Below, piece after piece: positions 2,608-5,644 of a stretch of 64,000 nt of DNA. Position 1 is the first letter of the stretch, and every line of letters begins with the position of its first letter. The stretch is from Nakamurella deserti (lineage in GTDB: Bacteria > Actinomycetota > Actinomycetes > Mycobacteriales > Nakamurellaceae): assembly GCF_003260015.1 (NCBI RefSeq), contig NZ_QCXS01000004.1, forward strand, positions 62,001 to 126,000. The letters are read 5' to 3'. A program made the translations under genes and the position numbers. The notes beneath the pieces were generated by a model. The model was not told the DNA's origin. It searched no databases and worked only from the letters and a program-made list of their open reading frames with translations.

Positions 2608-3042
2608 CCCGATCTGCGTGCGCCGGCGCGCCGGGGACGAGTCCGTCGAGCACCCGACCCCGCCGGCCTGAACGCGGTGGCGCCGTCGTCAGGTCGGCCC
2701 CGGTGTGTCTGTGGCACGCGTGCCTGCGAGCCGTCCCGGGGCGACGCGCTGCCGATCCGCCACCGTGTCGGCACGGATGTTCGTGAGGTACTTCGACGAT
2801 TCCGTCGACACCCTGCGGGTTCGCCATGCCGCAGGATGGCGCCGTCATGCGGTCCCCGATGCCGTCGTCCGCCGGGGCGCGGCCCGGATCATCACCACGC
2901 CGGCGCCACGGCCCGCCACCCACCCCGTGGTGTCGCTAACTTTCTGTACTTCCGGCGTAACGGAGAGCTACACTCGGGTTTACGCGCGAAATACCCACTG
3001 AGTGCTGTGCACCACGGACGCAGTCGACCCGGAGAGGTACGG
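2608..3042. other. Intergenic region upstream of rsbQ
   Basis: No gene is supported in these 435 bases. A possible -10 box TACACT lies at 2969-2974, about 70 bases before rsbQ, with no good -35. Just downstream at 2977-2997 is an imperfect inverted repeat running from GGGTTT to AAATACCC, possibly a regulator site. The rsbQ ribosome-binding site GGAGAG is at 3031-3036. Confidence 0.4.
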
Positions 3043-3849
3043 ATGGCACGCAACGCAGTGGCCCGTAACAACGTGACGACGCTGGGGCGGGCGGACGGCC
3101 CGGTGCTGCTGTTCGCCCACGGGTTCGGTTGCGATCAGAACATGTGGCGCCGCATCATCGGCGCGTTCACCGACGGGTACCGGGTGGTGCTCTTCGACCA
3201 CGTGGGCGCCGGTGGCTCGGACCTCGACGCCTACGACCACGCCACCTACGCGAGCCTGGACGCCTACGCCCGTGACATCGTCGAGATCTGCGACGAGATG
3301 GCGCTCACCGAGGTCACGCTCGTCGGACACAGCGTGAGCGCGATGATCGGTGCGTTCGCGGTCGCGCAGCGGCCGGACCTGTTCGCCCGTCTCGTCATGG
3401 TCTCGCCGTCCCCGCGGTTCATCGACGACCGCGACTACACCGGCGGCTTCACCGAGGAGGACATCGACGGCCTGCTGGAGTCGTTGGACAGCAACTACTT
3501 CGGCTGGGCGGCGAACATGGCGCCGATGGTGATGGGCGACGCGCAGCCGGCGGCCCTGCAGGAGGAGCTCACCGTCAGCTTCTGCCGGACGCGACCCGAC
3601 ATCGCCTACGACTTCGCCCGGGTGACCTTCCTCAGCGACGCCCGCGACGTCCTCACCGAGGTTCCCACCCCCACCCTCGTGCTGCAGTGCACCAACGACC
3701 TGCTGGCCGCGGTGGAGGTCGGCGAGTACGTCCACGCCCAGCTGCCGCACAGCCGCTTCGTGCTGCTCGCGGCCACCGGCCACTGTCCGCACGTCAGCGC
3801 CCCCGACGAGACCGCCGCCGCCATCCACGCCTTCCTCGCCGATGTCTGA
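3043..3849 (+). CDS. rsbQ: RsbQ-type alpha/beta hydrolase
   Basis: This 268-residue single-domain alpha/beta hydrolase is very close in length and layout to Bacillus subtilis RsbQ (269 residues). The nucleophile elbow is GHSVS with Ser97; Asp219 (CTNDLL) and His247 (TGHCPH) complete a triad at almost the same positions as the known RsbQ triad. The oxyanion region HGFGCDQNMW also fits. RsbQ is needed for the PAS-domain phosphatase RsbP to signal energy stress, and is a relative of the plant D14/KAI2 hormone receptors. Its stop overlaps the start of the next gene by 8 bases, and that gene encodes a PAS protein, so the RsbQ-PAS partnership is preserved with a different output. The ATG has GGAGAG at 3031-3036. 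Confidence 0.93.
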   Translation: MARNAVARNNVTTLGRADGPVLLFAHGFGCDQNMWRRIIGAFTDGYRVVLFDHVGAGGSDLDAYDHATYASLDAYARDIVEICDEMALTEVTLVGHSVSAMIGAFAVAQRPDLFARLVMVSPSPRFIDDRDYTGGFTEEDIDGLLESLDSNYFGWAANMAPMVMGDAQPAALQEELTVSFCRTRPDIAYDFARVTFLSDARDVLTEVPTPTLVLQCTNDLLAAVEVGEYVHAQLPHSRFVLLAATGHCPHVSAPDETAAAIHAFLADV

Positions 3850-5644
3850 GGTCGCCGTCGCCGCCGAGCGGCCGCGCACCGCTCCCGCAGCGGTCGCCGA
3901 GGTGGTGACCCCGGCCGGCGCCGCCGACCGGTTGTTCCACGACGCCCCCTGCGGGTACCTCGTGACCACCGACGACGGCTGCATCCAGGCCGTCAACGAC
4001 ACCTTCGTGCGCTGGTCGGGCCGCGCTCGCGAGGACCTCATCGGGACCCCCGTGGGGCGGCTGTTCCCCATCGGCGACCGCATCCTCTACGCCACCCACT
4101 GCCAGCCGATGCTCGAGATGGTCGGCGTCGTGGCCGAGATCGCCGTCGAGGTGGTCACCGCCGGCGGTGCCCGGCGTGCCGCGCTGCTCAGTGCCGCGCG
4201 CACCCCCGCCACCGACGACACCCCGGCGTCGGTGCGGGTCGTCATCTTCAGCGCCCACGAACGCCGTCGGTACGAGAAGGAACTCCTGGCCGCGAGACGG
4301 GCGGCCGAACAGTCCGAGGCGCAGCGGGCGGACGCCGAGGCGGGGCTGCAGCATCTGGCGCTGCACGACTCGCTGACCGGGCTGCTCAACCGCGCCGGCC
4401 TCACCGCCCACCTGGACCGGCTGTTCGCCGCGCCACCGGACACCCGGATGGGGCTGGCCCTGCTGTTCGTGGACCTGGACCACTTCAAGGCCATCAACGA
4501 CAGCCTGGGCCACGCGGCGGGTGACGAGCTGATCGTCACCGTCGCGCGGCGACTGACGGCGTCGGTGCGCGGCTCGGCGATCTCCCGGCTCGCCGGTGAC
4601 GAGTTCGTCGTGCTGGAGAAGGTCCGCGACACCACCGAGGTGGTCACGGTCGCCCAGCGGCTGCTCGAGCTGCTCAACGCGCCGGTGACCATCGACGGCA
4701 TCGAGATCGTGCCGTCGGCGAGCATCGGGGTGGCGCTGACCGAGCCGGACGACACCCCGGACCGGCTGCTGCGGCACGCCGACATCGCGATGTACCGGGC
4801 GAAGTCCCTGGGTCGTAACACCTGGCACCTGCACGACCCGCTCAAGGTCGATCCCGCCACCGGACGACTGCGGGTCATCGGCGAGCTCCGGCACGGGATC
4901 GAGCGCGGCGAGTTGCGGGTCCACTACCAGCCCCGCATCGACCTCGGCACCGGCCAGGTGCACAGCGCCGAGGCGCTCGTCCGGTGGCAGCACCCGACCC
5001 GGGGGTTGCTCAGCCCCGACCAGTTCGTCGACATCGCCGAGGAGTCCGGCCTGATCCGCAGGCTCGGGGCCCGGGTCCTCGACGAGGCCGTCGGGCAGGC
5101 GACCCGCTGGCGGGCCGCGCACCCGCAGCGGCCGCCCCTCGAGATCGCGGTCAACCTCTCGCCGCGCCAGCTGACCGACCCGGCCCTGCAGTCCGTCGTC
5201 ACCGAGATCCTGGCCCGGCACCGCTTCGACCCGGCGCTGCTGACGCTGGAGATCACCGAGACCGCACTGATGGCCGACCCGGACGCGGCCCTCGCAGCCC
5301 TGTCCGCGCTCAAGCGGCTGGGGGTGCTGCTGGCGGTGGACGACTTCGGCACCGGGTACTCGAGCTTCACCTACCTCAAGCGCTTCCCGGTGGACGAACT
5401 CAAGATCGACCGCAGTTTCGTCGCCGGACTCGGCACCGACACCGGCGACACCGCCATCGTGGCGAGCTGCATCCAACTGGCGCACGCCGTCGGCATCCGG
5501 GCCGTCGCCGAAGGCGTCGAGACCGACGGCCAGTACCGGGCCCTGGTGGAGATGGGCTGCGACTACGCCCAGGGTTACCACTTCGGCCGCCCGGTCCCGC
5601 CGGAGCGGTTCGACCTGGGCAGCGCGGGTGCGGTGGCCCCCTGA
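3842..5644 (+). CDS. PAS-GGDEF-EAL cyclic-di-GMP turnover protein, RsbQ partner
   Basis: This 600-residue cytosolic signalling protein has no membrane segment. An N-terminal PAS domain (about 28-125, with the ILYATHCQPML segment typical of RsbP-type PAS domains) is followed by a helical linker (about 135-170), a GGDEF domain (about 175-335) and an EAL domain (about 350-590). The diguanylate cyclase signature is AGDEF at 251-255, a tolerated variant. The phosphodiesterase signature EAL is at 377-379, with DDFGTGYSS and EGVET motifs present, so both halves may be active. It overlaps rsbQ by 8 bases and is surely co-translated with it. By analogy to RsbP, the hydrolase product or the hydrolase itself probably acts on the PAS domain. 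Whether net synthesis or breakdown of cyclic-di-GMP results cannot be told. Confidence 0.93.
   Translation: MSEVAVAAERPRTAPAAVAEVVTPAGAADRLFHDAPCGYLVTTDDGCIQAVNDTFVRWSGRAREDLIGTPVGRLFPIGDRILYATHCQPMLEMVGVVAEIAVEVVTAGGARRAALLSAARTPATDDTPASVRVVIFSAHERRRYEKELLAARRAAEQSEAQRADAEAGLQHLALHDSLTGLLNRAGLTAHLDRLFAAPPDTRMGLALLFVDLDHFKAINDSLGHAAGDELIVTVARRLTASVRGSAISRLAGDEFVVLEKVRDTTEVVTVAQRLLELLNAPVTIDGIEIVPSASIGVALTEPDDTPDRLLRHADIAMYRAKSLGRNTWHLHDPLKVDPATGRLRVIGELRHGIERGELRVHYQPRIDLGTGQVHSAEALVRWQHPTRGLLSPDQFVDIAEESGLIRRLGARVLDEAVGQATRWRAAHPQRPPLEIAVNLSPRQLTDPALQSVVTEILARHRFDPALLTLEITETALMADPDAALAALSALKRLGVLLAVDDFGTGYSSFTYLKRFPVDELKIDRSFVAGLGTDTGDTAIVASCIQLAHAVGIRAVAEGVETDGQYRALVEMGCDYAQGYHFGRPVPPERFDLGSAGAVAP

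Follow-up and report, generated by a model that had tools for sequence, protein, structure and literature searches.

The energy-stress branch of sigma-B control in Bacillus subtilis relies on RsbQ, an alpha/beta hydrolase, and RsbP, a PPM phosphatase that carries a PAS domain. Earlier work established that the catalytic triad of RsbQ is required for this signalling (PMC3183031, cited here and below from the available parts of its text). In the same paper, Nadezhdin, Brody and Price (2011) described 45 RsbQ/RsbP-PAS pairs and proposed a common input module whose output is a phosphatase, a histidine kinase or a diguanylate cyclase, three of the cyclases bearing a C-terminal EAL domain. An AlphaFold2 model of a 2RsbP/2RsbQ assembly places RsbQ between the PAS domains and linkers, in a paper that also restates the 2011 output survey (PMC12143880, likewise available in part). 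The locus described here lies in a 64,000-nucleotide stretch of the actinobacterium Nakamurella deserti (contig NZ_QCXS01000004.1, positions 62,001 to 126,000; hereafter the window) and matches the cyclase-EAL branch of this module, with rsbQ immediately upstream of a gene whose product has an N-terminal RsbP-type PAS domain followed by GGDEF and EAL domains. The wiring of RsbQ-PAS to an enzyme of cyclic diguanosine monophosphate (cyclic-di-GMP) was already published in 2011; the window pair is a real new example of it, and the concept is not new. Its interest lies mainly in a divergent contact residue, in free-standing RsbQ relatives and in a fusion found elsewhere. Searching titles and the beginnings of abstracts, with most subscription journals outside the coverage, found no other papers on pairs of RsbQ with cyclic-di-GMP enzymes.

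The gene pair and its proposed mechanism

The two genes and their parts are arranged as follows, in window coordinates.

3031..3037, forward strand: Shine-Dalgarno-like GGAGAGG 5′ of the rsbQ ATG (sequence read)
3043..3849, forward strand: RsbQ-type alpha/beta hydrolase, 268 residues, ATG start (domain scan, PDB match, alignment)
3331-3333, 3697-3699 and 3781-3783, forward strand: codons of the triad residues Ser97, Asp219 and His247 (alignment)
3842..5644, forward strand: PAS-GGDEF-EAL protein, 600 residues, its start overlapping rsbQ by 8 bases (3842-3849)
3920..4252, forward strand: RsbP-type PAS domain, residues 27-137 (alignment and structure model)
Residues 80-94 of the same protein: F-alpha helix, with Leu82 (B. 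subtilis Phe55), Tyr83 (Cys56), His86 (Tyr59) and Pro89 (Pro62)
4253..4363, forward strand: continuous predicted linker helix, residues 138-174, containing ERRRYEKELLAARRAAE (structure model)
4358..4819, forward strand: GGDEF domain, residues 173-326, active-site motif AGDEF at 251-255 (Pfam, alignment)
4883..5593, forward strand: EAL domain, residues 348-584 (Pfam, alignment)

Among solved structures, B. subtilis RsbQ (1wom, E 4.6e-78) ranks first for the window hydrolase, followed by 3qvm and then by the plant KAI2 and D14 receptors. Identity to 1wom is 46.3% (120 of 259 aligned residues), and chain positions 98/221/249 of that structure pair with Ser97/Asp219/His247. These three residues are unvarying across an 11-row alignment. 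Of 154 RsbQ rows, 151 have the triad; it is lacking in L136, which is only partly matched, in L141, which lies at a contig end, and in the eroded copy L144. The sequence thereby confirms the RsbQ type of the hydrolase. Triad, PAS class and gene order are all shared with the B. subtilis RsbQ-RsbP pair, which differs in having a PPM phosphatase where the window has GGDEF-EAL. The plant receptors belong, by sequence, to the same hydrolase family; they signal to plant F-box/SMXL partners instead of to a PAS domain. By analogy with these relatives, a small-molecule signal for RsbQ is a reasonable suggestion. The first-pass annotation of this DNA had recognised the RsbQ-like hydrolase with its triad, the coordinates of the pair, the 8-base overlap and the kinship to D14 and KAI2, and was right in each respect. 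It had also read the pair as hydrolase-PAS input on a cyclic-di-GMP enzyme, which homology, gene order and conservation support and which was already in print as a class.

The 600-residue protein matches PAS_9 (E 5.5e-07), GGDEF (9.4e-40) and EAL (3.3e-75) of Pfam, in that order from the N-terminus. Its EAL domain aligns with EALVRW, NLSPRQL, LEITETALM, DDFGTGYSS, ELKIDRSF and AEGVET, and thus holds the whole catalytic set of a phosphodiesterase (EAL, N, E, DDFGTGYSS, K, E, Q). The GGDEF domain has no RxxD I-site at the customary spacing. Structure prediction of the single chain from an 11-row alignment (mean predicted local distance difference test score, pLDDT, 80.3; predicted template modelling score, pTM, 0.47) gives a PAS fold with its F-alpha helix, then the unbroken helix 138-174 and the GGDEF domain. 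Within this helix, ERRRYEKELLAARRAAE resembles the start of the RsbP linker. By Foldseek, the folds closest to the model are the PAS-GGDEF-EAL structures 5xgb, 5xgd and 5xge of PA0861 from Pseudomonas aeruginosa, which has the same domain order and is 30% identical across the alignment. PA0861 is also called RbdA. The continuous 37-residue helix contrasts with the EAL-containing proteins of the 2011 survey, for which the available text reports no predicted coiled coil (PMC3183031).

Taken together, the two genes probably form an RsbQ-PAS sensing module that acts through a cyclic-di-GMP enzyme. In the proposed mechanism, a small molecule would bind the Ser-His-Asp pocket of RsbQ and would probably be hydrolysed there. 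The PAS-GGDEF-EAL protein would be a dimer, and RsbQ would touch its N-terminal PAS domain and probably also its linker helix. From there the signal would run through the helix of 37 residues and alter how the GGDEF-EAL domains turn over cyclic-di-GMP, the GGDEF domain possibly serving as a partner regulated by guanosine triphosphate (GTP) or as a weak cyclase. The modelled linker helix, the intact EAL motifs and the AGDEF cyclase motif together favour RsbQ-PAS input on turnover, with phosphodiesterase activity somewhat more likely than synthesis as the net output.

The same motifs bear on a different end point, in which the module works and its GGDEF-EAL part is catalytically silent, acting as an effector that binds cyclic-di-GMP or GTP, or as a scaffold. 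The replacement of GGDEF by AGDEF and the missing I-site would fit such a role. However, every EAL motif checked is present, and Vibrio cholerae has an active cyclase with the AGDEF motif (PMC3974145, available in part). A silent output is considered very unlikely.

Two further elements flank the pair. A palindrome-like GGGTTTACGCGCGAAATACCC lies at window 2976-2996, its last base 46 before the rsbQ ATG, and is the sole exact match of its pattern in the window. On the 3′ side, a gene for a TetR-type regulator follows on the same strand (likely start 5814).

Conservation of the pairing and its outputs

The window PAS (E <= 1e-8) and RsbQ (E <= 1e-35) were searched against 394 genomes of the class to which N. 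deserti belongs. PAS matches numbered 76 in 71 genomes, RsbQ matches 78 in 74, and 69 genomes had both. Directly downstream of 69 of the 78 RsbQ matches lies a PAS match on the same strand (69 of the 76 PAS matches), at an intermatch gap of -31 to 202 nucleotides. Several of the nine unpaired RsbQ matches are at contig ends or have their PAS on a different contig (G135, G186, G265, G136). The pairing in the class exceeds chance. A second scan, of named genomes, retained the best 80 of at least 576 confirmed relatives; in the combined samples, which share some contigs, 148 of 160 RsbQ matches are paired with a PAS.

Counting each distinct PAS segment once leaves 142 pairs of the combined set, among which a pair found later in Arthrobacter sp. 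Leaf137 is not counted. Their outputs are 110 SpoIIE-type phosphatases, 24 others, seven GGDEF-EAL proteins and one GGDEF protein; a GGDEF-EAL output is therefore rare (7 of 142). Six of the 24 others were scanned and all proved to be histidine kinases, a receiver domain being present in four; a seventh (L069) showed a PAS alone, and some rows of this group end at contig ends. In the class sample, 5 of the 78 PAS-bearing open reading frames (loci L066-L151) contain GGDEF-EAL. Two belong to N. deserti itself, one in the window and one a second copy elsewhere in the genome (L144); the others come from a congener (L151), G095 (L131) and G080 (L128). The named-genome scan, among its best 80 relatives, added the pairs of Arthrobacter sp. 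OV608 and 9AX, and the later search that of Leaf137 (L234). The single GGDEF case (L140:2759-4708, reverse strand, genome G203) consists of a PAS-GGDEF protein adjoining an RsbQ-like hydrolase that is 42% identical to the window's; this hydrolase is distant and sits on a long branch of the RsbQ tree.

Hydrolase, PAS and cyclase are joined outright in one Pseudomonadota genome (G688). The fusion (L278:3586-5340, reverse strand; contig C1 around 3924095-3924874) is a stop-free open reading frame of 585 codons with RsbQ at 20-280, PAS at 300-386 and GGDEF at 423-578. Its hydrolase and GGDEF parts are seen by Pfam and its PAS part by a custom RsbP-PAS profile and by alignment. A second copy about 103 kb away is unfused, with a single stop between the parts, and 295 genomes of the same order gave no further stop-free match over both parts (E <= 1e-30). 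As a single case, the fusion suggests joint action of the hydrolase and the PAS-cyclase.

These data bear on the simplest alternative, namely that the window hydrolase is an ordinary esterase co-transcribed with a cyclic-di-GMP gene by happenstance. Pfam indeed matches it to generic hydrolase families only, and NCBIfam matches are all below cut-off among the 25 of 30 listed. Yet the nearest solved protein is RsbQ itself, and the 69 pairs of the class sample set this hydrolase upstream of one PAS type whether the output is SpoIIE, a kinase or GGDEF. Such conserved pairing already disfavours an ordinary esterase, as does the fusion, and the idea is most improbable.

Free-standing RsbQs and a second PAS-GGDEF-EAL copy

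A tree of 77 RsbQ rows was built with the SpoIIE rows thinned to every third; it omits L144, whose hydrolase is eroded, and three rows without PAS that scored at most 400 bits, and the paired RsbQ of Leaf137 came later. Six intact RsbQs of GGDEF-EAL pairs and seven RsbQs without an adjacent PAS form one clade (support 99/99). The seven comprise an orphan from the N. deserti genome and six from Arthrobacter/Pseudarthrobacter (L167, L170, L182, L188, L194, L204). The N. deserti orphan (C4:254165-254956; L067:4153-5001, reverse strand) is intact and shares 69% identity with that of the window; no PAS gene was found directly downstream of it. Six genomes were chosen for their Arthrobacter/Pseudarthrobacter orphan: an RsbP-type PAS match at E <= 1e-6 is absent from five, and the sixth, Leaf137, has one pair and one orphan. 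An RsbQ of this clade can therefore persist alone.

The surroundings of the orphans were inspected for a conserved partner, which is rejected for now, most shared neighbours looking like synteny of close species. Within a few kilobases of two of the seven, a multi-PAS GGDEF-EAL gene lies on the opposite strand, about 2.3 kb from the N. deserti orphan (L067:7288-10419, forward strand) and 1.7 kb from that of L170 (L170:3011-5521). This may be chance, the N. deserti genome having 29 GGDEF matches.

The second PAS-GGDEF-EAL copy of N. deserti (G000:C2, approximately 1225-1227.5 kb; L144:2109-4569, reverse strand) is 63% identical to the window protein over 578 residues. The hydrolase beside it is shortened and matches the window RsbQ at residues 5-163 only (41%); the stretch that would hold Asp219 and His247 is absent from its reading frame, and the other frames give no significant match. 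The output of this copy either functions without a hydrolase or is served by another RsbQ.

The PAS contact surface and the weight of the evidence

PAS residues are numbered here as in B. subtilis RsbP; ten numbered residues of the RsbP sequence used match the published ones (PMC3183031). In that paper, the class-typical residues C10, L13, L48, Q53, C56, Y59, E72 and P86 form a consensus and are not strict, and the aromatic residue at position 55 is likewise a consensus feature that does not define the class absolutely. The F55A substitution in RsbP disrupts contact with RsbQ and leaves B. subtilis with a null phenotype in signalling (PMC3183031). The contact residues, on which the first-pass annotation had staked its reading, give a mixed picture in the window. 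C10, L13, P62 and E72 are kept, as they are in all seven GGDEF-EAL PAS domains of the main sample, and Arg for Q53 and His for Y59 are the commonest residues at those positions among the compared rows. Phe55, on the other hand, is replaced by Leu82, and the domain is also unlike B. subtilis at positions 48 (Phe), 56 (Tyr) and 86. The DIT motif is absent from its end, as in the class, and the PAS terminates in VVIFSAHERRRYEKEL.

Several observations count against a working RsbQ-PAS module at this locus. One is position 55, the best documented of the RsbQ-contact residues of RsbP, which is Leu or Val in all seven GGDEF-EAL rows of the combined pairs, as opposed to Tyr, Phe or His in 108 of 110 SpoIIE rows and in all 21 readable rows of the other outputs (three further rows are gapped). 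Leu also occupies it in Leaf137 and in the single GGDEF row L140, and the usual E57 and the bulky residue at 60 are gone in all seven GGDEF-EAL pairs. An alignment slip is unlikely because the F-alpha stretch has no gaps. The contact described in B. subtilis is therefore not transferable unchanged. Position 86 of the window PAS is Ala instead of Pro. At the genus level, PAS occurs in 2 of 17 genomes and RsbQ in the same two, so the conservation expected by the first-pass annotation extends across the class and not through the genus; close relatives carry the module only here and there, yet its genes are tightly linked wherever it occurs. With AGDEF instead of GGDEF, cyclase activity of the window protein is uncertain. 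The low pTM makes the relative placement of domains in the model uninformative, and the PAS part of the L278 fusion was missed by Pfam at E <= 0.001. Given the second copy with its eroded hydrolase, the cognate RsbQ may be dispensable. Finally, no experiments on the window protein were found.

Leu55 was also considered as a mark of cyclic-di-GMP outputs generally. In a control of 398 Pseudomonadota genomes (RsbQ E <= 1e-60), whose centre genome G418 was itself picked for having RsbQ, the hydrolase occurs at 23 places in 20 genomes, with a PAS behind it or fused to it at 21. At the five GGDEF or GGDEF-EAL places, the residue in position 55 is Y, L, F, F and Y in turn; among the 16 places with other outputs it is Y or F in 14, L in one and V in one. 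With four of five aromatic, the idea was rejected, and Leu/Val55 is therefore a lineage trait and no rule for cyclic-di-GMP output.

One consequence of the altered surface could be that the PAS-GGDEF-EAL protein is now independent of RsbQ. The F-alpha contact would have been lost, RsbQ kept for another job as a free-standing hydrolase or receptor, and the overlap left as a relic. The changes at 55, 57 and 60 in every GGDEF-EAL pair favour this, as do the seven PAS-less RsbQs of the clade, the five orphan-bearing genomes with no PAS match and the second copy beside its eroded hydrolase. However, the pair remains adjacent, with a small gap or overlap, in seven genomes (that of the window, G004, G095, G080, Arthrobacter OV608, 9AX and Leaf137), with the triad intact in all seven, and the retention of C10, L13, P62 and E72 is a further point against independence, which is considered unlikely.

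Another possibility, tenable if doubtful, is that the actinobacterial GGDEF-EAL branch has been rewired. On the F-alpha surface, Leu/Val55, Tyr/Trp56, the lack of an acid at 57 and a small residue at 60 would have arisen together with Arg/Lys37, Phe/Tyr153 and Leu221 in the RsbQ clade. Free-standing RsbQs would serve the same PAS-GGDEF-EAL proteins in trans, and the N. deserti orphan would take over from the eroded hydrolase beside the second copy. If true, two receptors and two outputs would make up a small network read through cyclic-di-GMP. RsbQ residues 37, 153, 163, 221 and 251 were examined as proof of co-evolution with the PAS and rejected as such, since most also occur in those RsbQs of the clade that lack an adjacent PAS; shared descent therefore suffices as an explanation. 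At RsbQ position 203, paired rows have V/I/L/M and Arthrobacter-type orphans have E, in few lineages.

The favoured reading thus remains a two-gene sensing module in which RsbQ and a PAS domain govern a cyclic-di-GMP enzyme. The natural ligand of RsbQ in bacteria is given as unidentified in the available text of PMC3183031, and that of KAI2 likewise in the available text of PMC10504578. An RsbQ with a cyclic-di-GMP enzyme as its output would provide a direct second-messenger read-out for the ligand search, and the RsbQ-PAS-GGDEF fusion would be a handy protein for solving the hydrolase-PAS interface.

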